DNA from: Bolinopsis microptera
Taxonomy: Eukaryota > Ctenophora > Tentaculata > Lobata > Bolinopsidae
Assembly: GCF_026151205.1 (NCBI RefSeq)
Contig: NC_087081.1
Coordinates: 15,984,837-16,048,836, forward strand
Length of the DNA stretch: 64,000 nucleotides
Direction of reading: 5' to 3'
Every line of letters starts with the position of its first letter. Position 1 is the first letter of the stretch. This document shows positions 5,961 to 60,198 of this stretch, piece after piece. Under the pieces are notes generated by a model that was not told the origin of the DNA, did no database searches, and worked only from the letters and a program-made list of their open reading frames with translations. Made by a program: the position numbers and the translations under genes.

Positions 5961-7130
5961 TATAAACCAATTTAGCCACGAATTTAGCCAAAAATGTGAT
6001 AAATTTCCTGAGCTGACGTGGGCTGATCATGGGGGGAGAGGTATATAGGGGGGGGGGGGGTCATTGTTTAACGGTGTGCTTAGTTGGTTTATTTCCCTTG
6101 TCTTACTTATAATTCGAAAGATTATGTTTGTTTGTCTGTATAAGGTATAATGTATGTAAGACTGCCCACGTACAAATTAGGTAGAAAACAGGGAGTTGCA
6201 TAGTGACCATGGTAACGGTGGTGAACATGCACGTGCAAAGATTTTAGAGCGATATTTTGATCGATTTTGTTGTTAAAACATTAACGTTGTGTTTAACTTA
6301 AGAAGCAACACGCTCTTTGAGCAGTTTAAATTAACCTGCTGATTTTCTGCACACTAAATTTACTATTAGCGGTGACTACTGACTTGGATGAAGTCCTGGC
6401 AAGCAAAACTATAACTGTAGATTCTGTACGACACATGAAGCAGCAGCTTGCTTCTTTCATTTTATCTTTCGTTTTATTTGCGATAATCTAAATAGCGCTA
6501 TTTACTGATGATTTAATTGAGTTGGGTTTTAGACGGGATCGTCTTAGTAAAATATACTTATCTGTGGTAAAGAGACATGGGCTAAAGAATAAGTTTGGTA
6601 TTGGGTGTGGAAATATATTAACGCCATAGCTTGACCTATTGGCATCTATTTCTATTGTTGCGCAATATTTGTTGCACGTGTTGAATTTAGTTTTATAATA
6701 ACTTTGCAACGGCGCAAATCGGAGTTCTAGAATTGCACGGGAGATTAAGCGGGAGATCTATTAGTTTAATTATTGGGTCAGTTCGTTTCATGACGTGTTG
6801 ACTACGTTTCGGTATACTTTATCCCTACCGTTTTATTACATTTTCTTAATTACCTATTACTATACATATTTAATCTTAAATTATCATTTTAGTGGAACTA
6901 TGTAAAAGGGGATCGTTGCTAGCGTCGAGATTGTCTTAACCCTGCCTTAGTCAGTTGAAAGTCTGATAGCATATGTTCCGTTTGATTTGACCAAACTAAT
7001 GCCTTCATTTCCTCTCAGTATTACACTAATTGCATACGTTGCTCTTTTCTTACTCTCTTATCTTAGTGCTTATCTCTGTTGATTGTAACGTGCAGCTACA
7101 GTGGTTTGTGTATCACCGTGTTACACGACC
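5961..7130. other. No recognisable gene
   Basis: A poly-G tract of about 12 bases lies near 6049-6060. I see no exon with domain signal. The last few hundred bases may be 5' flank of the ORF1-like gene that starts at 7131. Confidence 0.45.
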
Positions 7131-7493
7131 ATGACCATCCCGCCCAGCGAGTATGGTGAAAAGGAGATCAACATGTTAAGGGGTGACTCAGTTGAACTTC
7201 TCAGCAAGGCTATGTACGAGATGGAGATCACAGCAATAAGGCAACTATCCCCTTCGTGCGTGAAGAAGATGACTAAGAACACTGCGTGTGACTTGTTGCA
7301 CGATGCGTTAAGATATTTGGAGGAGTTCACTGGTGTCGTATCCACGGACTACAAGATGGCCTCAAACTCAGTTAAACATCTTATGTTCGAGACACAGGAG
7401 ACCATCATTAAGCTGCAGTCAGAACTACTAGCCTGCAAAAATGAACAGTTGGAATCGTTGCAGACGTCAGTTAAATCGTCAGTCGGAGAGTCT
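7131..7493 (+). pseudogene. ORF1-like gene, 5' part (split by transposon)
   Basis: This encodes the N-terminal 121 residues of an ORF1-type protein: a charged, helix-rich region ending in a segment (CKNEQLESLQTSVK) that matches the coiled-coil end of the intact paralogue at 11089-11931. The reading frame is cut at 7493 by a 15.1-kb transposon and continues exactly in frame at 22645. Joined without the transposon and one target duplication, the gene would be about 293 residues, close to the 280 of the intact paralogue. An upstream GTG at 7101 is also in frame, but the ATG at 7131 is preferred. Proteins of this plan (coiled coil, RRM-like fold, C-terminal domain) are usually non-LTR retrotransposon ORF1 nucleic-acid chaperones; no reverse transcriptase follows here. 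Confidence 0.8.
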
Positions 7494-7753
7494 AGTAAGG
7501 GGAAAAGTGGCATTCCGTTGGATCGGTTTGTTCACGACGATTTCTCAACGGAATATGGTAGTTAAGACCCTTACGAACATAATTAGACTTGTTGCCAATT
7601 TTTTATCTCGCCGCCACACCCTTTTTTTGCCACGCCCATTTTGAGGGTCTCGCGTGTAGTGAAAATCAGAGTTTTTGATAATTTTGGTCGAATTTGTCAT
7701 GCTATATATCAAACTAGGGGTTTTAAGACTCAAGAAACACGTTGCAACTATCT
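7494..7753 (+). repeat. Left terminal inverted repeat of 15-kb element
   Basis: This pairs with 22370-22639. It includes GCCACGCCCATTTTGAGGG. The two copies differ at few positions apart from the 14-15-bp substitution near the tip. Confidence 0.92.
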
Positions 7754-8136: not shown

Positions 8137-10614
8137 CTAGTCGACGGTTTCAAACATACTATCTTCGTTATCGCAGTCTATGCATAAACAGGCTTCTGAA
8201 CACCTTTGATTGTTTTTGTGGCAACCACATTGGTTGTTCACGCACTTGTTCTTTTTACATTTGCAGGTTATCATCTCTATACAAAATTCCGGTGCAGGTA
8301 AAATGTCCGTCATGACAGCTGCCAATCTGCCATCTTCAATCTTCCACCCCTGGTCTACAGAACAATCGGGAAGTGTGGGATGAAAGCTTAAAATTGAACG
8401 TTTCCACATGAGTGTGACGTAGTTTGCTCGTTTTATATGGAATTTAAGTGCTGCTTCCGTTGGAGGCAGGACTTCTCCATCTTCCTGATGTTTGGAATAT
8501 AGCTCCCATCTCAAGGAGCCAACGTCCTTGACATTAGAGTATCTATTGAGATCGTCTTGTCTCTTTATATACAGTTTTACAGTGAACAAACTAAGACAGT
8601 CAATCACATCATGTGCGATTTCTTCACCTCCACCGAACAGTTTCAGGCCTCTCATCATAGCTTCGTCATCGGCAAACAAACGAAGTGTTTTTAACGCCCT
8701 TGATTTGGTGATTTTGTTGAACCTGCCTGTGTAATCACATCCCGTGAAAATGTAAGCTCCAAGGAGGGCCTCGCATAAACTTAATCCAAGAGAATTCACC
8801 ACCGACTTTATTGGGACTACTTTTCTTCTTTTACTCGTTATCAGCTCAAATATTATATCTATACCAGTTACCTGCGTTGTAAGATATATAGCTAGTATAA
8901 ACACATCGGTATCTGGAGATACTATCCGAAATGTCGGAGGGTTCACAGCATCAGAGCTAAGCTGCCTGATAATGCACAGCAAAAGTGTATCAGCTTCGTG
9001 CTGGCTATGTGTTTCAATTTCCCACTCTGGCATATTTGATAGTATCTCAGTTCCTTGCACAATGATAAACAACTTGTGCAAGGAACCTAATTCAGCCATG
9101 ACCATCTTTGAGAAAAACTGACACATGATTTTTTTGTTCTCTGGGTGAGACATAAGCTCCTTAAGTTTGATGTTTTTGATAATGGTCCGCTCTGACAGTT
9201 TGTATTCAATTTGATTTTTGTGTCTGTCACACCATGTCTGTTTCTTCAAATTGGACAATGATTGGTCGTAACGATCAAATACTAAGACAACCTTTGGATA
9301 CAGAGAAGTTTCGTCAATAATCCGTTTAGTAAATTGTTTCGAAAGATCTTCTAGTGTAACAATATCTGGAGACATTTTCAGCTGGTTTGCAATACCCATA
9401 CCGTCAATAACAATAAAGTCCTGCGATGGGGAATGTGATGATTTCTCTGTTGAAACTCCGACGTGACCAATTATATCATTGAAAAAGTCAGACTTGTCAG
9501 TGCACTTCAATAATCTTCCTTCAGAGTTGAACAAAGAGTGAGGAACCACGGTAAACTCGTAAGTCTTCACCAGTTCTGCAACATCCAGGCTTGATCTTGA
9601 GCGTGATATTACGAGGAGACGTGTCATTAGCCCTCGCTCCTCTCTGAGTTTAACAATCTTTTCTGTGGTCTTGATCGTTATGGCTTTATTCAGAGTCTTG
9701 AAGGTTTTCAGTTTCCGTTTTGTTAATGTTTCCCATATAGAGACGTTTGTTTTCGACCCTTCAAATCTTTCAGTTGTGAAATCATTCAACATTACCTCCC
9801 CAATTTCTTTGATGTTCAGTATCTCCATATCGTCTTTCAGTACGGTGTGAGACATCACATTGAACACTATTTTGGTCGTCTTCAAGTCAACATCAAGGAA
9901 ATCAACTAACGCAGCTTTGTAAACTTGGACTCGTTCGGTGTGGAACTTTTTATAACCATTTGCGTCTTCATAGTGAATATGGTTTGTTGTATCAGGATTT
10001 GATGTCTCAAACTGCTTAGTAAATTGCTCCCGCAGTAATCGTTTAATCGGTGCAGTTAAAACGTACGTGTCAATTCCTTCGTCTGACAAACCTACTATCC
10101 CTCCCATCGACTTAAGCTCTTTGTTAACTTGCTCAAGACAGTGGTCCACTCCTATCGCTACGAAAGGCGCTTCAGTTTTATTACAACAAAAATTTTTGGA
10201 GAGGAATAACCACGTTGCTGGATCTTCGGTTCGGAGTTTATTCATTGAGGACAAGTACACAGGTGTCATTCTGGCGTAGTTTTGCAAATCCAAAGCAAAG
10301 AAGTATTTTGTGAATTTATCCAATGATACTAGGTGTAAGTTCCAAAGTTGTTGCCTTGTAGCTCTCATAAATAGTAACATTGTTTGTATCATTTCTAACA
10401 CATTATTGAGAAACTTTCCCTGTTTCGGAAGATCTTCCCTGAATGTCTGGAACTTTGAAAAGATTTTACCCGACTTCAATTCCTCGATGAGCTGATTGTG
10501 ACAGGAAGGCACATCTTGTAAGCCTGTTCTCATCTTATGCAGAATGGGACCGACAATTTCTTTTACCTTTTCCTTAGATTCATCGTCAGTGTCCAGAAAT
10601 TGATCGTATAATGT
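8137..10614 (-). CDS. XPG-nuclease transposon protein, exon 6
   Basis: This last exon gives 825 residues. The acceptor CATTTTTCAG ends at 10615, in phase 0, matching the phase-0 donor of exon 5. The first part has the pattern LLFMRATRQQLWNLHL and ALDLQNYARMTPVY, shared by a multicopy family in cnidarian and mollusc genomes. An XPG/FEN-like nuclease follows, with acidic residues in VIDGMG (exon residue D404), LVFDRYD (D447), EAD (E540, D542), SPDTD (D568, D570) and FTGCDYT (D627). The C-terminus is a tesmin/TSO1-like CXC cluster (CKCKKNKC, CGCHKNN, from about residue 784). The nuclease probably cleaves branched DNA or transposon ends; this is inferred. The frame extends upstream to a methionine at 10734, but those 40 codons lie in the intron by the splice evidence. 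Confidence 0.85.
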   Translation of the reverse strand, partial: TLYDQFLDTDDESKEKVKEIVGPILHKMRTGLQDVPSCHNQLIEELKSGKIFSKFQTFREDLPKQGKFLNNVLEMIQTMLLFMRATRQQLWNLHLVSLDKFTKYFFALDLQNYARMTPVYLSSMNKLRTEDPATWLFLSKNFCCNKTEAPFVAIGVDHCLEQVNKELKSMGGIVGLSDEGIDTYVLTAPIKRLLREQFTKQFETSNPDTTNHIHYEDANGYKKFHTERVQVYKAALVDFLDVDLKTTKIVFNVMSHTVLKDDMEILNIKEIGEVMLNDFTTERFEGSKTNVSIWETLTKRKLKTFKTLNKAITIKTTEKIVKLREERGLMTRLLVISRSRSSLDVAELVKTYEFTVVPHSLFNSEGRLLKCTDKSDFFNDIIGHVGVSTEKSSHSPSQDFIVIDGMGIANQLKMSPDIVTLEDLSKQFTKRIIDETSLYPKVVLVFDRYDQSLSNLKKQTWCDRHKNQIEYKLSERTIIKNIKLKELMSHPENKKIMCQFFSKMVMAELGSLHKLFIIVQGTEILSNMPEWEIETHSQHEADTLLLCIIRQLSSDAVNPPTFRIVSPDTDVFILAIYLTTQVTGIDIIFELITSKRRKVVPIKSVVNSLGLSLCEALLGAYIFTGCDYTGRFNKITKSRALKTLRLFADDEAMMRGLKLFGGGEEIAHDVIDCLSLFTVKLYIKRQDDLNRYSNVKDVGSLRWELYSKHQEDGEVLPPTEAALKFHIKRANYVTLMWKRSILSFHPTLPDCSVDQGWKIEDGRLAAVMTDILPAPEFCIEMITCKCKKNKCVNNQCGCHKNNQRCSEACLCIDCDNEDSMFETVD

Positions 10615-11088
10615 CTGAAAAATGGACGTGTATGTTTGTTTGAAAACCAGTTTTTGCTGGTACCCATAAGGGCTTTGGAACCAATATATAATAAATTGTA
10701 TGAATAAATCAAAACCCCGTGGGGCACGCGACATTCAAGATCTAGTTGCAAGCACATGTTATAAAACATTGTAAAATAGCCTCAAGACCAGAACTGCATA
10801 TTGCTTGGGCTTCCAGCCCAGTTTGCTCAACAGTTCGTGGCCTACTTACCTAACTTAAAACCTTAGTGCAATGCTTGCAACAACTAAAATCCTATTCTAT
10901 AACTAAGTTACCCTATTACGTATAATCTAGAAGAGTGATGCAAAAAGTCAACTGATAACGCAACACAGTCTAATCATACTCTTATCAGTAGTTCCTCTAA
11001 CCTCTGTTCTCAGTTATACAAAAAGTTTTAACTCCATGAAATTAACGTCACACACATACACAAATGCTTGACTTTCTCAAATAATTAG

Positions 11089-11931
11089 TCACTCAGCGAC
11101 ACAAACTTTATTGTTTTTTATGTAATATTTCTTGCTCGGGTCCTTCTTGATTCCCTCTTTCATTTCCTGTACGAGCTTTTGGCGAGAGATTCGCTCATCC
11201 TGCGACCTGTCTGGAGATAAGTAGAGTTTGTTGTAGTTGAAATTGTAGTCTGCCACATCAACCGATTTCAAGACTTTTGCTCTGCTCAGAAATTCACGTA
11301 CAATTTCAGGATCTCGCAAAGTAACTTTTATCGGCCGTGATCGAGGGCTGTCAGACTTCTTTACTCCCACTCTCTCAATGTTTGTTATAGTCGGCCTTCC
11401 AATGAACTTCATAAAACCCCAAATATCACCCACGAGATCCCGTTCGTTCATTTCTTGCTTTTCACATTCGAGCTGTTCTGGGGCCCCGAAGATGATAAAG
11501 TTTTTCGACCGATCATCTTCTGTAATCGCCGATTTCACAGCCATTTTGATTTTAGCTGGAGAGATATCAGAAGCTACGCTGTTATTCTTCACAACATCTG
11601 TAAACAGTTTCATTTCTGTTTTCACTGTCTCCTTCACTGAAGCTAGTTTACCAGATTTGCATTGGATGAGCTCGTTCTGAGTTTTTATCTGTTCTGATTT
11701 CTGTTGGTCAAGCGTCTCTGCTGCTGATCTCAAAACATTTCTCGATTTACATATCATAGACCCCATCTTCAAAACTATTTCGGTTATTACATCCTTTGTA
11801 ACGCCTTTTGGCTTGAACAAGTCATGAGTGAGGTCCTCTAGTTTCCTGCAATTAAGATTCGCTAAAACCGAGTCTGATAAGTCCTCAATCTGTTTCTCCA
11901 GTTCGTGAAGTGTACTGACCGAAAATTCCAT
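11089..11931 (-). CDS. ORF1-like nucleic-acid-binding protein (intronic)
   Basis: This is an intact 280-residue protein. Residues 1-115 are helix-rich with probable coiled coil. An RRM-like core follows (DDRSKNFIIFGAPEQ at the first strand, later RPIKVTLRD), then a basic C-terminal domain (LYLSPDRSQDER). This is the plan of ORF1 proteins of L1/CR1/Jockey-type retrotransposons, which coat RNA and act as chaperones. No reverse transcriptase frame adjoins it. It lies in the intron between exons 5 and 6 of the transposon gene, same strand, and is a diverged paralogue of the gene the whole transposon interrupts. It could be an inserted ORF1 copy or a passenger gene. The methionine at 11931 is chosen; an in-frame upstream ATG at 11964 would add 11 residues. 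Confidence 0.7.
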   Translation of the reverse strand: MEFSVSTLHELEKQIEDLSDSVLANLNCRKLEDLTHDLFKPKGVTKDVITEIVLKMGSMICKSRNVLRSAAETLDQQKSEQIKTQNELIQCKSGKLASVKETVKTEMKLFTDVVKNNSVASDISPAKIKMAVKSAITEDDRSKNFIIFGAPEQLECEKQEMNERDLVGDIWGFMKFIGRPTITNIERVGVKKSDSPRSRPIKVTLRDPEIVREFLSRAKVLKSVDVADYNFNYNKLYLSPDRSQDERISRQKLVQEMKEGIKKDPSKKYYIKNNKVCVAE

Positions 11932-12021
11932 ATTGTGTATACTTCGTGTATAGCAAAGCTGCACAGTAAAAGGCAGTGCAATTACCTATTTACTGATAAG
12001 AGACAACTGATATCAACTCAC

Positions 12022-12439
12022 AAGCGAAAAGATTGATTGCACACTGTATAATATCAGGCTAGCAGCCACGCACCGTTTCATGTGCTTTCCTTCTAGAATC
12101 TTCCCTATGGCTAATGGACCGTAAATACCGCAGTGACTGAACAGCTTCTCGAGTCCACTATTGTCAATATATTTCCCAATAGCTCTACACATAGCAAAAA
12201 CTACATGTAACTCGCCCATCTTGAATATGAAGTGATCTCCGATATCCCCTTTGGAATACAACTGTATCGCCTTTATGTACAGCTGCAGATCTAAAGTGAC
12301 GATCGTTTTTTGATCTGGTGTGATTTTTGTAGATATGCCTTGGCACATCTTCAATGCTGTATACAGTGTCGACCAATCTGTAGGCGGTGACTTTATAAGA
12401 GGAAGCATTGCAATGTTTGTGACCCCAGCTTTGGAACAA
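12022..12439 (-). pseudogene. XPG-nuclease transposon protein, exon 5 (frameshifted)
   Basis: The exon carries a strongly conserved part of the family: SPPTDWSTLYTALKMCQ, VTLDLQLYIKAIQLY, FKMGELHVVFAMCRAIGKY and GKHMKR. It ends at the donor CTT|GTGAGT in phase 0. Its start coincides with the 3' end of the inserted LINE; the target duplication GAGACT lies at 12440-12445. When exon 4 is joined to it across the LINE, one base is in excess, somewhere within 12409-12439, so the gene is frameshifted as well as interrupted. A sequencing error could also explain this. The conserved core reads cleanly from the ATG at 12408. Confidence 0.8.
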
Positions 12440-12869
12440 AGTCTCGCGTTGTATTTTTTTTATTAAATACTTTTCAAATTTTACAGAGTACAGCAATAGA
12501 TGAATATAAAATAGAATCGTTCAAAATATCGCCCCCATCTGTAAAATATGATGGGCACCCAAACACGGTAAACACATAGTGAACTATGTCCGCAGTAACT
12601 TGGACCCATTACATCGAATTAATCTAAATCCAAAAATTTATGAAAAACTATTTAATAACAAACAAATCCATGGTGAATAACTGTGGATATATAGTCAAAA
12701 TTGGTATTTCAATACGTCAAATTCCAGATACATTAGATACAGGTCTGATATGGTCATTAATGTGTGAGGTGTGCGGGTGAAGTGTGATATGATGTTGAAA
12801 GTATAGGAAGGTAGATAAAAAAATTAATAAAACAAAAATAATAATAATATGGGGAGCAAAGAGACTAGG

Positions 12870-15800
12870 CTAGGCTGTTGTTTCACTATCCAATAAACAT
12901 TTCCATAGATGCTTAGTGACCTCAGCTTTGAAAACACTTGTAGACACAATCTGTCTTACCTGTAAAGGGAGTCCATTCCACAGTATATGAGTTCTGTAGA
13001 AAAATGATTTTGCCAGTGGGCTATTTGAGGTACATAAGGTGTGTGAATTCTGACTTAACTTAGGTAAAATTGATGACACAATAGACAGACTGTCGAGGTG
13101 GCAACGTCTTAGTCGAGAAGTGCCCTGATATAAAGTGAGATAGTGAGGCAGCCATACAGGAATTAAATTGTTCAGAACTTTGTGGAAAAAAATAAGATCA
13201 TTCAAGTCAAACTTTTGAGACAAAGGGAGAATGTCGACAAGCTTGCACTTTTTGACATATTGCTCAGGTGGATAACTGCGGCCCTCTTCAGACAGAATCC
13301 ATTTAATAGCTCTCTTTTGGAGACTTTCTAATTTATCACTAAGTGATTTATTACAAGGGCGCCAGATTATGGAACAATTTTCGAATTGGCTACGAACCAG
13401 GGAGAGGTAAAGCGCCCGGCGACGTTTCTGATCAATGACAATATTGCCATCTCTTCTGACCATACCAAGTTGTTGGCAGGCCTTAGTATAAATTCTGTCG
13501 CACTGACTATTCCAACTGAGCTTAGGAGTAACATCGACTCCAAGATCTTTTTCTAACTCTACATACACAAGAGGAGAGCCATCAAGATTATATGCGAATG
13601 GAGGAGATAAAGATGGTTTTCCTGAAACAATAAGCACTTTACATTTTGCTGGATGGAATCGCATTTTGTTTCTAAGTGCCCAGTCAGAGAGATAGTCTAT
13701 GTCCATTTGTGAATTGGTATTATCAGAAGATGAATGTATTTTACGCCAGATTTTTGTATCATCGGCATACAAAACAATATCAGTATTATCCGAAAGGCCA
13801 AGAGGAATATCATTGATAAACAATACAAAAAGTAAGGGACCAAGGATAGAGCCCTGGGGGACACCAGAATTAACTGAGAGGGTAGATGACATCTCATTAC
13901 CAATAACCACTCTTTGGTAACGGCCTTGAAGGTAATTGGTAAGAAATTTGAGAAGTGTACCATCAATGTTATATAAGGTCTTTAGCTTATGAAGAAGGAT
14001 ATCATGATTTACAGAATCAAATGCCTTAGCAAAATCAAAATACACAACATGATTGATAATGTTTTCGTTAAGAGACAATGCCAGGCTATCACAAAAATCA
14101 ACCATATTGGTTGTGCATGACTTGTGCTCTAGAAAACCATGCTGCCTGGGATCAAGAAGGGTACTTGTCAAAGAAAGCAGTTTACGTTTAACAATGCGCT
14201 CAAAAACTTTCATGACTAAACAAGTAAGGGATATTGGTCTATAGTTTTCAACCTCACTTTTCTTACCTTTCTTAAATATTGGGACAACATTTGCAAGTTT
14301 CCATTCTTGTGGAATGTAGCCGCTGTTGTAGGATCCACGAAAAATGCATGTTAGAGGGTAAGCTAAACCTACGGAACAATTTTTTAGAATTTTACCGTGT
14401 ATGCCATCTGGTCCCTGGGCTTTATTTGAATTAATATTTGAAAGAAGCTTACGAACATCCCGATGATCGAAGTCAATATCAAAATCAACATCATTGACAT
14501 AAGAGATGTCAGTGTCATAAAGTGAAGGATCCGAAAACTGGTTATAAAAGAAAGAATTGAAAAGTTCAGCTTGATCTTTGGGATTGAACCGAAGCTGTCC
14601 AGAATAACTAACACAATTAGGAATACGGCAGGAGTTAGATTTATACTTAACATGTGACCAAAACTTCTTAGTTATAAGCGCTGGATCATCACTATTAAAA
14701 AGATTATCTCTTATTTTGGCTGATGAGAGCCTCTTAAAATCTTTACGGCTAGTAACAAACTTTAACTCATCAGAAATAGAACCAGAAATTTTAAATTTAG
14801 CTCTGAGTCTATCTTTTTTACGGCATGAAGAAAAAAGTTCACTATCGAACCACGGGGGTTGGAACTCTGATTTAATAATTACTTTAGGAATATGTATATC
14901 AACTAAATTCATAATGCAGTCTTTTACTAACTTCCAAGACGAATCAGGATCTAGGCATTCTAGGACTTGCCAATTAATCGAGCATAATTCACGATTAATC
15001 ATGTCCCAGTTTGCTTTCTTAAAATTATAGATTTTACGTTTAGGAGTTTTCTTACGGGAAAAGGAGCTTTTAATTGAAAAAGTGACAGGAAAATGATCAG
15101 ATTTGCACACGGAATGAGGATCACAGACATTTAAGTTATCGATTGTGTTATCATAATTACTGAGAAGAATGTCTAATGTATTACCACTTTTATGGGTGGG
15201 TGATGTGATCAACTGGGAGAGAGAAAGATCACTGAAAGAATCTATGAAGGATTGCTCAATAGGTACGGTACTGGATGAAGATAGCCAGTCTGTATGGGGG
15301 AGATTAAAATCACCAATAACATAGATTTTAGGGGGATTCTTTTTGGAAACTAGCTTGCGAATATAACTAACTATGACATCATGATTAGGTAACCCAAGAG
15401 TTCCTACTCTATAACAAGTACAGATTACAATACTCTCTTTGTTAGGAAAAGAAATTTTAACGGCAAGCATTTCTGCACCTAGGCTAACTGGTAGTCGGGT
15501 TGTAGTGGCGTCAAGATCAGACCGAACAGCCAAAAGAACACCACCTCCATTTTCCCTAAACTTTTTAGGGTTATTAGGATCTTGAGGATGAGTCTTTCTC
15601 GTGCGGTCATTGCGGAAGATTTCATATTGAGAAGAAGGAAAAATTTCGTTGCTAGAAATAGATTTTTTGAGCCAAGTCTCATTTAGGGCAATTATGTCAG
15701 GCTGCTCTATGTTAGCAAAGGATTGAAGTTCGGAAATCTTATTACCATCAAGAAGGGGATGGGAGGAGCTTAGGTTACTGAAAGGAATGAGACCTTGGAC

Positions 15801-16385
15801 ATTTTGGTAGAGTACAGATAGGGAGTTGGGACCTGGATTAAGCATAGAAGGATTAACAAGAGTTATCAAAAGAAAGTTAAGAGAGAAAACCCAAAGAATG
15901 AATAAAGAGACTAGACGCCTGAGGCGGCTGGAATACCTGACTCTATTCATCTTACCAGGGAGAAGAACATTTCTTATAAACCATGAGGAGATAATTACAA
16001 AGAAAAGTTTGATGTGGGAGCAAGCAAGAAATGGTATAAGATAACGTGGGCTGTCAAGGAGTAGAGAGGAATGAATATTAGAATCTAGGGGGAATACGGT
16101 GTTCATGGACCTAACCGTGGAGAGAAGAATTGGGAGAAAGTAAGTCATGATGAGAGAATAGAAGAGAAACATATGATTATGATAATTGTAGTTGATGTGT
16201 GGGGTGTATGGAGACTTAAATGTGTAAATTTTGTTAGGTATAAACGTGTTGATATGTATAAGTGCATTTCTTGACTGTGTACGAGGCCTTTTGCATGCAA
16301 AAAGACCTATTCTAAGTCTAAACGATTCATTGTCTAACATATTGGAAAATGGACAGTGACCGAATGTACCTGAAATGGGAGGCAT
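12870..16385 (-). CDS. LINE ORF2: endonuclease-reverse transcriptase
   Basis: This is an intact 1171-residue ORF2. Residues 185-435 are an APE-like endonuclease (YQNVQG N195, NETW E236, GDFN D359, SDH 429-431). Residues 690-960 are the reverse transcriptase (NYRPISLT, FDFAKAFDS with D784, SGVPQGSILGPLLF, YADD 873-876). The C-terminal region has the usual CR1/L2 pattern. It nicks target DNA and copies the RNA there. The first ~180 residues have three hydrophobic stretches (about 72-92, 124-141, 158-177) and then LNPGP at 182-186, resembling the 2A-like leader known in some CR1-type elements. The true start could be the methionine at residue 146. No internal stop or frameshift was seen. Confidence 0.93.
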   Translation of the reverse strand: MPPISGTFGHCPFSNMLDNESFRLRIGLFACKRPRTQSRNALIHINTFIPNKIYTFKSPYTPHINYNYHNHMFLFYSLIMTYFLPILLSTVRSMNTVFPLDSNIHSSLLLDSPRYLIPFLACSHIKLFFVIISSWFIRNVLLPGKMNRVRYSSRLRRLVSLFILWVFSLNFLLITLVNPSMLNPGPNSLSVLYQNVQGLIPFSNLSSSHPLLDGNKISELQSFANIEQPDIIALNETWLKKSISSNEIFPSSQYEIFRNDRTRKTHPQDPNNPKKFRENGGGVLLAVRSDLDATTTRLPVSLGAEMLAVKISFPNKESIVICTCYRVGTLGLPNHDVIVSYIRKLVSKKNPPKIYVIGDFNLPHTDWLSSSSTVPIEQSFIDSFSDLSLSQLITSPTHKSGNTLDILLSNYDNTIDNLNVCDPHSVCKSDHFPVTFSIKSSFSRKKTPKRKIYNFKKANWDMINRELCSINWQVLECLDPDSSWKLVKDCIMNLVDIHIPKVIIKSEFQPPWFDSELFSSCRKKDRLRAKFKISGSISDELKFVTSRKDFKRLSSAKIRDNLFNSDDPALITKKFWSHVKYKSNSCRIPNCVSYSGQLRFNPKDQAELFNSFFYNQFSDPSLYDTDISYVNDVDFDIDFDHRDVRKLLSNINSNKAQGPDGIHGKILKNCSVGLAYPLTCIFRGSYNSGYIPQEWKLANVVPIFKKGKKSEVENYRPISLTCLVMKVFERIVKRKLLSLTSTLLDPRQHGFLEHKSCTTNMVDFCDSLALSLNENIINHVVYFDFAKAFDSVNHDILLHKLKTLYNIDGTLLKFLTNYLQGRYQRVVIGNEMSSTLSVNSGVPQGSILGPLLFVLFINDIPLGLSDNTDIVLYADDTKIWRKIHSSSDNTNSQMDIDYLSDWALRNKMRFHPAKCKVLIVSGKPSLSPPFAYNLDGSPLVYVELEKDLGVDVTPKLSWNSQCDRIYTKACQQLGMVRRDGNIVIDQKRRRALYLSLVRSQFENCSIIWRPCNKSLSDKLESLQKRAIKWILSEEGRSYPPEQYVKKCKLVDILPLSQKFDLNDLIFFHKVLNNLIPVWLPHYLTLYQGTSRLRRCHLDSLSIVSSILPKLSQNSHTLCTSNSPLAKSFFYRTHILWNGLPLQVRQIVSTSVFKAEVTKHLWKCLLDSETTA

Positions 16386-16479
16386 AAAATTGAGAAGATT
16401 AAATCAGAGATTTGTTTGAGTTTTAATTTTAGGCGCAACGTCTTAATCAAAATATTAAATGGAAGAAAAGATCAAAGAT

Positions 16480-17862
16480 TTAAATTCCCAGAAGATTATT
16501 TACAACCCTGTCAAAACTGTGTTCGTTTACAACAAACTTAAGCCAAGTGGACAGTAAACCTACTCCTCTCATGTTGAGATGAAGCCAATCATGGTATAGA
16601 AGTTCATTACATGATCTAAAGTCTCGAGTTAAAAAGACTGAGAAACAGTCTAAAAACACGCAATTATTATTTAGGCATAAGTCTTTAAGTAGATTATTAA
16701 AATCTAGAACATTCTTTGCTATGTAGGAATATAAACATTTAATAGGAAGACAACATTGGATAATTATAATTGCAGCGGGAAATAACTGCTTAGTGGTGTC
16801 AATTAATTCAGTAAGATACTTCCTAAGGAACTGAACCCCATACTTAGAATGTTTAATGTCATTTGTACCAACACTCAATATAATTTTTTCAATATCGTCA
16901 GCTTCTGCAGCTGCATGAGTTTTATGAAAATTATGAATGTTTTCAGTGATGTCTCTAATTTTTGCACCACTTTGAGACACATTGATTACTTTCCTTCCCC
17001 GGAATCCCAACTTATTTGTCCGTACGAATTTTGTCATTGACGTACCAAACAGGACAGTGGTTTTCCTGCTCTTCGGTTTTCTTGGAGTATTTCGGTAGTA
17101 AAGGGTTGGTGTTGAGGTGGTGGTGGGCAGCATAGGAATTGTAGTGCGGGCAATCTGCTCCTTGACTACATTTGTATCTGTCTTCGGTATCTGGCAGCGA
17201 AAAGATAAGCTATACCGAGTCCCCTTAACTGAGCTCTCTGCACGAACCTTGTGAAGACAATATTCCTGACACCCCGGTTTCATAATATACAAACTACAGT
17301 CCTTTGGGGTGATATAGCATTTACTGTTACATCGCTTATCCCCATTTTCTGGAATTATGTCGATGGTCCTCTCAGCTCCAAATGAAACTACATAAATACC
17401 TTGCGACTGGTCAAGAGACACCTCGTCGTCGTTGTGGTACCTAGTTGCACAAGAACCAGACTTGTACATGCTTGCTAGGCATGAGTTTAGCTTGCAGCCA
17501 AACTTGGAGTTGATATCATGCATAAGCTCTGATATCCCAGGATAATTTAAAATATCGATTGGCTCCTTAGTCGTGGTGTGTCCATTTGAGGAAGACCATA
17601 CATATTCTTCTCCAGTCGAAGTGAGCCACTTTGTGGCAGTTTTCACAGCAGTTTGTTTGGCCATAAGTGTTTCAAGTTCAGACATCAACGTGCCATGTTG
17701 AACACTCTTGTTCTGAACAAAATCTGAATGCAACTCCAAGAAGTCCTCGCATTTAACAGAATTTCTCTTAAGTTTCATGACATTCTCAACACTGGCCTTG
17801 AGAGCTTTCAGCTCATTTAATGAAAACGAGTTTAAAACATTGGTAACAGAATTCAGATCCAT
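16480..17862 (-). CDS. LINE ORF1: AlkB-like dioxygenase fused to SGNH esterase
   Basis: This encodes 460 residues. Residues 85-224 match AlkB-type 2OG-Fe(II) dioxygenases: LNSCLASMYKSG, the iron pair H143-x-D145 in RYHNDDE, distal H204 in YCLHKV, and R216...R222 in RYSLSFR, which fits the AlkB RxxxxxR 2-oxoglutarate and substrate signature. Residues 268-445 match SGNH/GDSL hydrolases: S275 in FGTSMT, G299 in SQSGAK, G332-T-N334-D335, and D425-x-x-H428 in DWLHLN, so every catalytic block is present. The N-terminal ~80 residues look helical. SGNH esterases are known in CR1-type ORF1; AlkB enzymes remove alkyl groups from RNA or DNA, and some RNA viruses of plants carry one. A role in demethylating the element's RNA is inference. 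Confidence 0.9.
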   Translation of the reverse strand: MDLNSVTNVLNSFSLNELKALKASVENVMKLKRNSVKCEDFLELHSDFVQNKSVQHGTLMSELETLMAKQTAVKTATKWLTSTGEEYVWSSSNGHTTTKEPIDILNYPGISELMHDINSKFGCKLNSCLASMYKSGSCATRYHNDDEVSLDQSQGIYVVSFGAERTIDIIPENGDKRCNSKCYITPKDCSLYIMKPGCQEYCLHKVRAESSVKGTRYSLSFRCQIPKTDTNVVKEQIARTTIPMLPTTTSTPTLYYRNTPRKPKSRKTTVLFGTSMTKFVRTNKLGFRGRKVINVSQSGAKIRDITENIHNFHKTHAAAEADDIEKIILSVGTNDIKHSKYGVQFLRKYLTELIDTTKQLFPAAIIIIQCCLPIKCLYSYIAKNVLDFNNLLKDLCLNNNCVFLDCFSVFLTRDFRSCNELLYHDWLHLNMRGVGLLSTWLKFVVNEHSFDRVVNNLLGI

Positions 17863-17976
17863 AGTGATGTGAGGAAGAGGGAGGAGAAAATGGCGGTGAG
17901 GGAGGAGAAAATGGCGAAGTCAATACTGTAGCCCAGGAAGTAGATGCGTTGCTTAGGATACAAACGGTCACGTCAT

Positions 17977-19405
17977 AGTCTCTTCTATCGCTTTGACATT
18001 GGGACCCTTATATGATTTCCAGGTAAGTGTAAACTGATTTTCTTCATCATATAGCTGTTGTAAGCCCCAGGTTTCGTCGTAATGTTGATATCTTTGCTCG
18101 TCAACACATACAGTTCCACGATACTTTGGAAGAGGTGGAGATAACATCTTTGGGGGGTAACATTGCTGCAGCTTAACGTTGAGATCGCTCCGTGTGTCAT
18201 CATTTTGAGTTGATGATACCCTTGACAACTTAATGACTTGTTCTCCCAACTTAACATCATTCTGGAAAACTGTTATCAATGTACCATGGAGCTGACCTTT
18301 CCCATCTTTACTGTCCCGCTGGAAATCAGAGTTATCAATGGCAAAATAGGGTCTTGTTTTTTTGCAGATTGTTAAAGGCACGTAGCAGTTGTTTTCATCT
18401 AAACAATGTACCTTGGCGTAACTCTCGATGCAATCTTCAATGAGCTTTATTTTTTTGTAGTCTTCAGAAACATTAAGGCCCTTCGTTTCCGTAATAATCT
18501 TTTTGCTCCGAGTACTGTTGTGGATGGAGAGTCCTAAACCAACAGAGAAAGGGGTTTCATTACTGTGGAATCGCTGTTGTGGGCCATTAACATCACCTTT
18601 GGCTAAGCTTCTTCTCACAGATCGATCACTTTTCGTGTTAATGGAGATGAGCTGACACAGCATATCTATTGTCTTGCTGGTTTCTTTAGCCTTAAATTGT
18701 GTAAGATCGCCGGTAACATCACCATACAGCAGCCATTTCAGAAACGATTTCAATTCAATAGGAGACTGGAATGAGGTAAAATCTCCTGTAAACGTCCATT
18801 TGCTTAGCTCTGCGTCCTCCATCGACTTTCGAATCACAAGTGCTGCCTTACGAATATTCCACATATTAAGATCCTCAATCAATGCATCAACTGCAAAAGA
18901 GACAACTCTAGTAGAACATACAGTATCAGGACGATTTTTTAGTGTGTTCGGGATGAAGACTATACCACTTAGATTGTCAAGAATCAATTCCTTAATGTGC
19001 TTTTTAGACTTATTTGCTCCAAGAACACTCTCATCGACATGAACATGGTGCGAAAAAATGGTGACGTACTGTTTATGTAGCTCCTTGGTATTGGTCCGAA
19101 AGTCTCTGTAACCAACAGTCTCGCACTTATCTAATAGCCAAATAAGAAACTCAAGGTCTACGGCCTGTCCTGGCTCGGTACTCTGCACCCTCTTCTGTTC
19201 AATTTGATCGGCATTTCTCTCTGCTTCAACCAAACACTTCTTATGATACATGATATCTCCAGCAACCGCATCTGGGACAGCTCTCAAGCGAATCCCAAGC
19301 TGTTCATCAGTAGTGACCCTAGCAATACGACAAAATGATTCACTTACAGGGAGAGTGAGAACGAGATGCAGTGTATCAGCTGTCCCCAGGCAGAACACAC
19401 ACGAT
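17977..19405 (-). CDS. XPG-nuclease transposon protein, exon 4
   Basis: The acceptor TCTGTTCGCAG ends at 19406. The exon opens with a single base completing an AGA codon with exon 3, then SCVFC, the first half of a Cys-x2-Cys motif followed by MYHKKC, a probable zinc-binding module. Later family motifs include VSFAVDALIEDL, VGLGLSIHNSTRSKK and YFAIDNSDFQRDSKDGKGQLHG. The frame runs to GAG ACT at 17982-17977, where the LINE begins, and hits a stop at 17968-17970 inside the LINE's 5' end. Roughly 476 residues belong to the transposon protein. No function can be assigned beyond its being the N-terminal half of the presumed transposase. Confidence 0.82.
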
Positions 19406-19519: not shown

Positions 19520-20750
19520 CTAAACGGACACAAGGACAATATCACGAAAATAAACCGACTTTATCACGCACACAGGGACAATATCACGCAAAAAAACGGA
19601 CTTAATCACGCACACAGGGATAATATCACGCAAATGAACAGACTTTATCACGCACACAGGGACAATATCACGCAAATGAACAGACTTTATCACGCACACA
19701 GGGACAATATCACGCAATTGAACAGACTTTATCACGCACACAGGGACAATATCACGCAAATAAACAGAGTTGATTACGCACACAGGGACAATGTCACGCA
19801 AATAAACAGACTTTATCACGCACACAGGGACAATATCACGCAAAAAAACAGACTTTATCACGCACACAGGGACAATATCACGCAAAAAAACGGACTTAAT
19901 CACGCACACAGGGATAATATCACGCAAATGAACAGACTTTATCACGCACACAGGGACAATATCACGCAAATGAACAGACTTTATCACGCACACAGGGACA
20001 ATATCACGCAATTGAACAGACTTTATCACGCACACAGGGACAATATCACGCAAATAAACAGAGTTGATTACGCACACAGGGACAATGTCACGCAAATGAA
20101 CAGACTTTATCATGCACACAGGGATAATATCACGCAAATGAACAGAGTTGATTACGCACACAGGGACAATGTCACGCAAATGAACAGACTTTATCATGCA
20201 CACAGGGATAATATCACGCAAATGAACAGACTTTATCACGCACACAGGGACAATATCACGCAAATGAACAGACTTTATCACGCACACGGGGACAATATCA
20301 CGCAAATGAACAGACTTTATCACGCACACAGGGACAATATCACGCAAATGAACAGACTTTATCACGCACACGGGGACAATATCACGCAAATGAACAGACT
20401 TTATCACGCACACGGGGACAATATCACGCAAATAAACAGAGTTGATTACGCACACAGGGACAATGTCACGCAAATGAACAGACTTTATCATGCACACAGG
20501 GATAATATCACGCAAATGAACAGACTTTATCACGCACACAGGGACAATATCACGCAAATGAACAGACTTTATCACGCACACAGGGACAATATCACGCAAA
20601 TGAACATACTTTATCATGCACACAGGGACAATATCACGCAAATGAACAGACTTTATCACGCACACAGGAACAATATCACGCAAATGAACAGACTTTATCA
20701 CGCACAAAGGGACAATATCACGCAAATGAACAGACTTTATCATGCAAATA
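19520..20750. repeat. 42-bp minisatellite, about 29 units
   Basis: The unit reads like ATGAACAGACTTTATCACGC followed by ACACAGGGACAATATCACGCA. It encodes a 14-residue repeat in one frame on the plus strand and another on the minus strand, so both strands stay open for ~1.2 kb. Variants (GAGTTGATTACGC, GGACTTAATCACGC) recur in a pattern suggesting higher-order duplication. It lies in the intron between exons 4 and 3 of the transposon gene. The long open frames are a consequence of a unit divisible by three, not evidence for a protein. Confidence 0.95.
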
Positions 20751-20855
20751 ACGTACTCCTACACGAACAATTATAAGATAACACAATATGACCTTGTTTT
20801 AATTATTACCAATTTAAAACGAAAAGTGCTGCAGTCTTTTAAATCTAAAACTGAC

Positions 20856-57906: not shown

Positions 57907-58015
57907 CTGAAAAATACCAGTGATTCATTGAAGTCTGAGATTGATGTTTAAGTGCATACATTATTGATGATATCATATATAAAATAACTTATTGTTTCAT
58001 TACAAGAGTGTGTAC

Positions 58016-60198
58016 CACAGTATTGGCTCGGATCACAGAGTAGTCGTAGCAAGGGTAAAGCTTAGTCTACGGATAAGCAAGACGGAGAAGAGGGCTCCGG
58101 TTCTGGACTGGTCTAAACTTAAAACTGATATCGCTCTACAAGAGAGGTACACAGTGGAAGTTAAAAACCGCTTTTCCATACTTGAAAAGGATGATCAGAC
58201 GGCAACAGAAAGGTACCAATGCTTTATTGATGCGAATAGGACAACTTCTCGACTTTTACTACCTGAAAAGGAGAAAAAGAAAAGATGTAAAATCTCAGCG
58301 ACTCCAAGTGTTGAAATTGCCAGGCTGAAGCTGAGGGAATGTAGCATAAAATACCACTCAGATGCTACAGAAGACAACCGAATAGCTGTTCAAGAGGGCA
58401 AACAGAAGCTAGGCGATGCTTATCAAGCAGCCAAAGAGCACCTGCTGGAGGGGCAGGTCCGGGAACTGGAGGAAGCAAGTTGGCAGGGCAGACATGCTAA
58501 AAGCTGGACCATGATCAACAAGATCACAGGTAAAGCTCCATCATATACTGGCAAAATCAAGGGAAACTCACCAACGGAAAGGGTTCAGAAATGGAAGGAC
58601 TATTTTGCTACTCTTCTCGGCTCACCACCGACGGTAGAGAACGCGGAAGAGGATATTGATCCAGTCCACCCACCTCTGAATATCGGAACAGAACCGTTTA
58701 CGTTGGATGAGTACAGGAAAGCAAAGTCCAGCATAAAGGAAGGGAAAGCATGGGGTGACGACAACATAGCCCCAGAAGTCTTAAAACGATGCGACCTTGA
58801 TCAAATTGTCTTAGACTTCTGTAACAATGCTCTATTGAAAGGTGAGAAACCAGACCAATGGTCAACTGCCAACATCATACCAATTCCAAAGAAGGGCGAC
58901 CTTAGCGAACCAATGAACTATCGGGGAATAAGCTTGTCATCCCTAGTTGCCAAGTCTCTAAACAAGATGGTTCTAAACCGGTTGAAGCCAGAAATCGAGA
59001 CAATTCTGCGTAGAAACCAGAATGGATTCAGACCAGGAAGGTCAACAACTCAACAGATATTGGTACTGAGACGTCTTATAGAGGGTGTCAAGAGTCGGAA
59101 ACTGCCAGCTGTTCTGACATTTATAGACTTTAAGAAGGCTTTCGACAGTGTACATCGTGGGAAAATGCTAAAGATTCTAGAAGCTTACGGCATTCCAGTC
59201 AAAATCGTGCAGCTTATACGGCTCATGTACGAGAAGACAATGGCCAAAGTCCTAACTCCAGACGGAGAAACTGAATTGTTCGAGATACTTGCAGGTGTGT
59301 TACAGGGTGATACATTAGCACCTTACCTCTTTGCAATAGTCATCGACTACTGTATGAGGCAAGCCATAGGCGATGATGCGGAGCGACTTGGACTCACCCT
59401 CGAACGTAGAAAAAGCAGAAGAGTGGGGCCCAAGATCATCACCGATGTGGACTTTGCAGATGATATAGCACTTATATCTGAGGACATGGACAAGGCTAAC
59501 GAGTTCCTGCTCAGAGTAGAATCGGCGGCAGCAAGCGTGGGACTACACATAAACGAAGGCAAGACCAAGGTCATGACACTGAATATGGAGGATCGATCTA
59601 GCGACCTACAAAGTCGATCCGGGGAAGCCATAGAAAATGTAGATGATTTCATCTACTTAGGCTCCTGGATTGAGAGCACAGATAGGGAGATAAGGGTTAG
59701 AAAGGGAAAAGCGTGGGGTGCCCTACATAGACTGAAGGATATCTGGAAATCCAAACTCTCAAAGAGCCTAAAGATTAGATTGTTCATAGCGGCTTGTGAA
59801 TCAGTACTGCTCTACGGATCAGAAACCTGGACACTGACAAAGGCTCAAGAGAAAAGTTTGACGGGACATACACAAAGATGTTGCGTATGGTGCTGGGTAT
59901 CTCATGGAAGGACAAGGTCAGCAATATAACTTTGTATGGTAGCCTCCCAAGGCTGTCAAACAAGTTACGAAGCAGGAGATTAAAAATGGCGGGACACTGC
60001 ATCCGACATCCTGAGCTACTTGCCAGTGATTTAGTCTTATGGGAACCTACGCACGGTAGAGCACAGCAAGGCCGACCAAGACAAAGCTACTTGTCTATGT
60101 TACTGAAGGAAGTTGGGACAAACTCTAAAGAGGAACTGCGAACCCTGATGCGGGACAGGGATATATGGAGGGGGTTTTCTGGCGTAGATCGGACTTAG
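58016..60198 (+). pseudogene. RTE reverse transcriptase, truncated and frameshifted
   Basis: The frame opens at the end of the endonuclease (SDHRVVVARV), then a connector and the reverse transcriptase: MNYRGISLSSL, QNGFRPGRSTTQQ, FIDFKKAFDSVHR, GVLQGDTLAPYLFA and VDFADDIAL, so the catalytic FADD is intact. After QEKSLTG (about 59855) the frame is shifted by one base; the neighbouring frame continues TYTKMLRMVLGISWKD to the natural C-terminus (DIWRGFSGVDRT) and a stop at 60196-60198. The copy lacks most of the endonuclease and cannot be autonomous. Confidence 0.9.

Follow-up and report, generated by a model that had tools for sequence, protein, structure and literature searches.

The proteins encoded by the first open reading frame (ORF1) of long interspersed nuclear elements (LINEs) are presumed to package the LINE RNA (PMC3905857), and the ORF1s of the Jockey superfamily were classed by domain as types I-V from 448 elements (PMC4120745). 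In the latter survey, the esterase ORF1s of this superfamily were drawn solely from vertebrate L2/CR1 groups. The esterase ORF1 proteins (ORF1ps) described there possess a coiled coil, sometimes with a zinc finger or leucine zipper (PMC3905857, PMC4120745), and those in Repbase have no known structured RNA-binding domain (PMC3905857). Here, we analysed a stretch of 64,000 nucleotides from the ctenophore Bolinopsis microptera (NC_087081.1, hereafter the window), which holds a LINE whose ORF1p fuses an AlkB-like dioxygenase domain to an SGNH esterase. This protein shares with ZfL2-1 ORF1p (PDB 4c1b), a type IV ORF1 of the CR1/L2 group, a helical N-terminus, a variable linker and a C-terminal SGNH esterase. 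Unlike the described esterase ORF1ps, which have no AlkB domain, it carries one between the N-terminus and the esterase, and the type IV criterion of "no structured nucleic-acid-binding domain" (Schneider et al., 2013) does not describe it. The strings AlkB, oxygenase, 2OG and methyl are absent from the texts of PMC4120745 and PMC3905857.

Domain evidence in the window protein

The preliminary description of this locus had reported a 460-codon frame bearing two complete catalytic sets. The frame is present, on the minus strand, which had not been specified, and all the residues listed (H143-x-D145, H204 and R216-x5-R222 for AlkB; S275, G299, N334-D335, D425 and H428 for SGNH) stand at their announced positions. 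When the protein was searched against PDB sequences with phmmer, residues 107-226 matched ALKBH3 (E 7e-8) and residues 270-438 matched the esterase of the ZfL2-1 LINE ORF1p, 4c1b (E 3e-5), which also ranked first in PDB for the esterase part (E 9.5e-6). In Pfam, the esterase was recovered as Lipase_GDSL_2 (E 3e-12). The AlkB part gave only a match to 2OG-FeII_Oxy below the cut-off (E 0.0048) and none to 2OG-FeII_Oxy_2 (PF13532) at E <= 1; hence, Pfam alone would miss the AlkB part of this protein. The structure prediction proposed earlier as a check gave a fold matching AlkB proteins in two families of the element, which share only about 28-30% identity with each other, and the structural alignments with ALKBH2, ALKBH3 and E. 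coli AlkB-type proteins showed about 19-27% identity.

Besides the fold, the HxDxE, H and R..R set is common to the window ORF1 and to ALKBH2, ALKBH3 and E. coli AlkB, and at eight further or shared key positions the sole difference from ALKBH3 is G197 (A). The ALKBH2/3 subfamily is closest by similarity, with the acidic residue two after the iron Asp present; ALKBH5 ranked below ALKBH2/3, again by similarity. In the structure model, helix 15-34 is predicted ahead of the esterase, and the N-terminal 35 residues are a possible candidate for a self-association region. The net charge is +6 at residues 228-267, and the last 18 linker residues carry at least +4 in 47 of 84 members. The AlkB-SGNH fusion is real, well beyond chance.

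Conservation in relatives, families and young copies

Among 5.8 billion proteins searched, 95 relatives of ORF1 were found, the lowest identity being 26%, in line with the earlier expectation that related proteins may already exist in databases. Lipase_GDSL_2 was detected in 80/80 aligned members and PF13532 (E <= 0.001) in 61 of the 80. In the alignment of 96 sequences, the AlkB columns were nearly invariant (H143 90/90, D145 90/90, E147 89/90, H204 94/94, R216 94/95, R222 95/95), and all five AlkB ligands were jointly present in 88 of the 89 relatives covering them. For SGNH, S275 was kept in 93/95, G299 in 95/95, N334 in 93/93 and H428 in 90/91 sequences, with Ser, Gly, Asn and His jointly kept in 86/88. 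The "complete SGNH set" announced for this locus thus holds for the window protein, but its catalytic D425 is not constant in the family (75/90). At this column, 15 of the 90 relatives and the families B and C introduced below have a different residue while retaining Ser, Gly, Asn and His; this may reflect an Asp at a shifted position, catalysis by a Ser-His dyad, or a role in binding.

Evolutionary rates and a mirror tree were obtained from 84 of the 96 sequences, 12 being dropped for covering fewer than 350 columns. In the maximum-likelihood tree, of about 40 substitutions per site in total, the AlkB ligands fall in the slowest rate class, where many sites tie, and the linker is the fastest-evolving part of ORF1. 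AlkB and SGNH pairwise distances correlated with r 0.76, the maximum of 2000 permutations being 0.24; hence, the two domains travelled together. The AlkB domains of the elements group on one long stem with moderate support (84.4 / 51). As a separate observation, 6 of the 80 aligned members matched OSK, the SGNH-like domain of Oskar in Pfam.

In viral contigs, the single-protein query found no LINE context, and the profile query returned only one AlkB-only gene, also without LINE context; this gene (L001:9830-10585, on a 74-kb IMG/VR contig) encodes an AlkB-like protein of 251 aa with HADKE in a frame without esterase. The search of genome contigs found no LINE context either. Linkage of ORF1 to ORF2 through equal-sized source contigs in the protein database was also tried, comparing 85 of the 95 ORF1 relatives with 120 listed ORF2 rows, of which 23 and 56 (4800-8000 nt) were tested. 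The two coincidences obtained (5975 and 5531, P 0.14) were not above chance, so this linkage was dropped and copies in the same genome were used instead.

The genome searched comprises 264.65 Mb in 232 contigs. All copy numbers are lower bounds, since scoring reached 92 of the 916 first-look candidates for ORF1 and 39 of 6905 for ORF2. There are at least 94 ORF1 matches, of which 26 (L002-L027) are open over at least 453 residues; the rest comprise fragments, members of families B and C, and old copies of 37-44% identity that contain many stops; several of these score identically at different places. The N-terminus of ORF2 lies within 1.5 kb downstream at 29 of the 30 loci L002-L031, the exception being L006, where ORF2 is 3.3 kb off. 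Seen from ORF2, 32 of 39 copies have an ORF1 at most 200 nt upstream, two more have one farther away and five have no listed ORF1. Into this pairing went 43 of 94 ORF1 rows and all but one of the 40 ORF2 rows, the second half of a split copy (C13:4710391) being excluded; by eye, the remaining ORF1 rows place no ORF1 close to any of the five ORF2 copies that lack one.

The architecture of the family to which the window copy belongs (family A) recurs in two others. Family B, of which 9 rows were fetched out of 12 listed, has an ORF1 of 457 aa and an ORF2 of 1176 aa, or 1164 aa in L043; in family C (3/3 rows fetched), ORF1 has 451 aa and ORF2 is a single open frame only in L032. For the pairs A-B, A-C and B-C, identity is 30.0, 29.1 and 40.0% in ORF1 and 50.3, 45.9 and 47.0% in ORF2. 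The AlkB ligands are all intact in the 12 copies of B and C, and the SGNH Asp column is K or G. The search suggested at the outset, for other ORF1s with both domains beside an ORF2, thus returned three multi-copy families with the same domain order.

Codon changes were counted in 24 equal-length copies, L012 and L014 being excluded for differing length. H143, D145, E147, H204, R216, R222, S275, N334, D425 and H428 are constant in all of them, and G299 is S in one. The free variation of the iron residues that had been proposed as grounds for refutation was thus not observed, the iron and 2-oxoglutarate (2OG) ligands being kept in 24/24 copies. Distinct variants numbered 15 nonsynonymous and 14 synonymous in AlkB (per-site ratio 0.29, p 0.001), 26 and 31 in SGNH (0.23, p 5e-8), 5 and 11 in the N-terminus (0.11) and 17 and 4 in the linker (1.49); these counts do not separate changes that preceded insertion from later ones, and they presuppose equal mutation rates. 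Purifying selection shows that these residues matter to the element; it does not give the identity of the substrate.

Layout, ends and surroundings of the element

The features of the copy are collected in Table 1. ORF2, described previously as intact and adjoining ORF1, is a frame without internal stop that begins after a gap of 94 nt. It contains Exo_endo_phos and RVT_1 (Pfam), as expected of an APE-type retrotransposon of the non-long terminal repeat (non-LTR) class, and retains all of the NET, GDFN, SDH and YADD motifs. The R2 and L1 reverse transcriptases (RTs) were its best PDB sequence matches, group II intron and other bacterial RTs being matched as well. An ORF2 without RNase H domain is a criterion of the CR1/L2 clade, and no RNase H family was detected in ORF2 at E <= 1 in the Pfam scan. 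The CR1 label, taken from the preliminary description, is putative.

Table 1. Features of the LINE copy in the window.
Feature	Coordinates	Strand	Remarks
LINE copy, whole, about 5.56 kb	12451..18006	minus	A-rich tail (GTATTTAATAAAAAAAATAC) at end; sits inside another ORF
ORF1, 460 aa, AlkB-SGNH fusion protein	16480..17862	minus	
ORF1 residues 1-35, N-terminal part with helices 3-11 and 15-34	17758..17862	minus	predicted structure
ORF1 residues 36-228, AlkB-like dioxygenase domain (H143, D145, E147, H204, R216, R222)	17179..17757	minus	
ORF1 residues 229-263, variable linker	17074..17178	minus	predicted local distance difference test (pLDDT) < 50 at 239-258
ORF1 residues 264-449, SGNH/GDSL esterase domain (S275, G299, N334, D425, H428)	16516..17073	minus	
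ORF2, 1171 aa, endonuclease-reverse transcriptase	12870..16385	minus	
ORF2 endonuclease, Exo_endo_phos match, residues 208-434; NET, GDFN, SDH motifs	15084..15764	minus	
ORF2 reverse transcriptase, RVT_1, residues 708-918; YADD	13632..14264	minus	
5' untranslated region (UTR), 144 nt in window copy; about 42 nt longer in many other copies	17863..18006	minus	
3' UTR and A-rich tail	12451..12869	minus	
Two GCCATTTT motifs in 5' UTR, 17908-17915 and 17887-17894	17887..17915	minus	within duplicated stretch

A blastn search of 12301-18000 against the window returned the self-match only, no search being aimed at repeats inside the element. Across the genome, the element is dispersed and multi-copy, with a common 3' end and A-rich tail, part of the copies lacking the 5' portion. 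From a comparison of the copies, the element starts in the window at base 18006, and the A-rich end lies near 12451; the 3' tail is alike in 13/13 copies fetched, and a guessed 3'-end pattern is absent from the window. The 5' stretch CCAATGTC..GAGACT is common to 24/26 copies. GAGACT had been considered as a 6-bp target-site duplication, which is ruled out by its presence in these copies; it belongs to the element.

The interrupted frame begins with an ORF at 17968-19398, the final 12 codons of which lie inside the LINE; this 5' part has no Pfam match. When the flanks were joined minus the element and an ambiguous AAG (18007-18009), at least 345 codons could be read through the empty site, the junction being picked partly for restoring the frame. 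No clear target-site duplication was found at the window copy, where the revised ends leave at most an AA/ATAyAA overlap. Elsewhere, flank matches of 89, 49, 43 and 22 nt at L022 (with L056) and of 18, 15, 13 and 11 nt at L003 (with L044) point to some insertions having very long target-site duplications; L005 and L018 showed no flank match above 8 nt.

In 16/26 copies, about 42 nt of additional 5' leader stand just before GGTCCCAATGTC (13 with one version, three with another), and four more have a partial or variant leader; L017 repeats part of it. The window copy, L016, L024 and L025 begin at or near GGTCCC. Both GCCATTTT motifs, which resemble YY1 sites, are present in 24/26 family-A copies. 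A single one is found 111 nt before ORF1 in family B (9/9), and none in family C (3/3).

Farther downstream, on the same strand as the interrupted frame, the range 8137-10734 holds an ORF of 865 aa that has a CXC (TCR) domain. A head-to-tail array of units of about 42 bp (by eye) at 19520-20776 can be read as an open frame in either strand, giving ORFs of 407 and 380 aa, and probably has no coding meaning. A second RT ORF of 645 aa lies at 57992-59929 (RVT_1 E 1.4e-33), with 27.6% identity to the LINE ORF2 over 266 residues. Two ORFs without Pfam match, at 11089-11964 (291 aa) and 7101-7565 (154 aa), resemble by eye the helical ORF1 proteins of other LINEs.

Proposed role and comparison with known systems

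The fusion, the predicted folds, the intact and constrained catalytic residues, the linkage to ORF2 and the occurrence in several families are directly supported. We propose, with a probability of about 0.5, that the AlkB-SGNH ORF1p is a two-enzyme protein of the ribonucleoprotein particle, in which a working AlkB demethylase clears 1-methyladenine (m1A) and 3-methylcytosine (m3C) from the element RNA in cis for the ORF2 protein (ORF2p). In this scheme, the ALKBH2/3-like domain would be an active Fe(II)/2OG nucleic-acid demethylase, acting on the element RNA within the ORF1p particle and removing Watson-Crick-face methyls (m1A, m3C and similar), whether host-placed or due to chemical damage, after which ORF2p would have a readable template to reverse-transcribe over its full length. 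The AlkB domain may also provide the structured nucleic-acid contact missing in the described esterase ORF1ps, so as to both hold and clear the RNA, and the esterase would play the same role as in ZfL2-type ORF1ps, for which lipid or membrane binding has been proposed. Since many distant relatives retain the catalytic parts, it is probable that the element cleans its own RNA with AlkB before copying itself. The nearest characterised enzymes, ALKBH2 and ALKBH3, reverse m1A and m3C. The same holds for E. coli AlkB, whose acidic residue two after the iron Asp is near N6 of m1A and, when changed to I, permits demethylation of N6-methyladenosine (m6A) (PMC7968990); this acidic residue is retained in 89/90 relatives. 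Besides, AlkB treatment is used in tRNA sequencing against modifications disturbing reverse transcription (PMC7968990). The substrate and the purpose, which the preliminary description had put as erasing host marks or protecting template RNA, are proposed here from sequence.

Several points weigh against this proposal. The predicted template modelling score (pTM) of the two-domain model is only 0.52, so that domain placement is not fixed, and ALKBH2, from complexes with double-stranded DNA, matches the predicted fold equally well as ALKBH3, leaving room for a DNA substrate. Eleven fixed differences separate the two subfamilies of the window family (11 and 13 copies), 10 of them nonsynonymous and one synonymous; the AlkB share is 4 to 0, none at a ligand, unlike what constraint would give. 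Over all pairs, the mean ratio is 0.60 for AlkB versus 0.18 for the esterase, from few changes. C128F and S220F are found in copies at AlkB sites nearly invariant in the family, and a single relative, P0070, has R216L. Finally, both the presence of m1A or m3C on the element RNA and their removal by ORF1p are what we infer.

The AlkB domain could instead strip host-deposited m6A from the element RNA, allowing escape from m6A-based control (decay, granule storage), as might be expected from the ALKBH5-like protein of an orchid Gypsy element, which demethylates m6A RNA in vitro (PMC9289625). Given the similarity to the ALKBH2/3 branch of m1A/m3C repair and not to m6A erasers, template clearing is favoured and m6A erasure appears unlikely. 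The ALKBH2 match would also suit an enzyme that acts on the target DNA or the new cDNA, repairing or demethylating it while target-primed reverse transcription proceeds, or one that lifts a DNA mark silencing insertions. However, the match to ALKBH3 complexed with single-stranded DNA is equally good, RNA is what ORF1 proteins are presumed to package (PMC3905857), and a survey of TET/JBP dioxygenases reports no retrotransposon with such an enzyme (PMC12730594), which confines the DNA-mark precedent to DNA transposons; action on DNA is thus improbable too.

AlkB homologues vary in substrate preference (PMC544882), and no sequence feature ties the AlkB domain to the RNA of the element, which would leave the enzyme free to act in trans on host RNA or protein (e.g., tRNA or defence factors). 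We give such an action little credit, the domain being part of the ORF1 protein and co-inherited with the esterase, for which a role in cis is simplest. A purely structural RNA-binding module, its catalysis no longer relevant, would fill the place of the structured RNA-binding domain otherwise missing in esterase ORF1ps (PMC3905857), and in the orchid AlkB-like protein, RNA binding survives a mutation that abolishes catalysis (PMC9289625); but the Fe and 2OG ligands kept in 88/89 relatives and 24/24 copies, in the slowest rate class, make it very improbable. That the motif arose by chance, or that a host gene merely adjoins the LINE, is already refuted by the 95 relatives, the fold predictions and the domain order shared by three multi-copy families.

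LINE ORF1 proteins are mostly viewed as RNA packagers. Here, both enzyme domains of ORF1p are constrained, and one is by homology a nucleic-acid demethylase; such a protein would offer a handle on RNA base methylation as a restraint on retrotransposition, and the AlkB-SGNH class also bears on what enzymatic ORF1 proteins, the esterase class included, do. More broadly, and tentatively, at somewhat less than even odds, these elements may form an old and widespread LINE class with its own epitranscriptome eraser, clearing RT-blocking methylation before target-primed reverse transcription; host m1A/m3C-type methylation would then be a barrier to retrotransposons, and AlkB-SGNH a new ORF1 type beside I-V.

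The fusion had been put forward as unknown among described LINE classes, and no LINE esterase ORF1 fused to AlkB was found among the open-access literature matches listed, which does not prove absence, Repbase, Dfam and subscription papers lying outside the search. Eukaryotic AlkB domains have reportedly been reviewed by Aravind and colleagues. ALKBH2, ALKBH3 and E. coli AlkB themselves are not fused to an esterase in a mobile element, unlike the window ORF1. Enzymes of the 2OG/Fe(II) oxygenase type are likewise carried by fungal DNA transposons, but these TET/JBP proteins are of another family and act on 5-methylcytosine (PMC12730594). Some plant RNA viruses also have AlkB in a mobile RNA genome (PMC544882), where repair of viral RNA was proposed as its role; there, the domain stands beside methyltransferase, helicase and RNA-dependent RNA polymerase domains and, unlike in a LINE, no reverse transcription is involved. 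Nor is AlkB in a retrotransposon new in kind, since the orchid Ty3/Gypsy element encodes an ALKBH5-like ORF2 (PMC9289625). That element is an LTR retrotransposon of a plant, with the enzyme in a separate ORF and on the ALKBH5 branch, whereas the window element is a non-LTR retrotransposon with an ALKBH2/3-like domain fused to an esterase in several families; the orchid and LINE AlkB domains would thus represent independent acquisitions.
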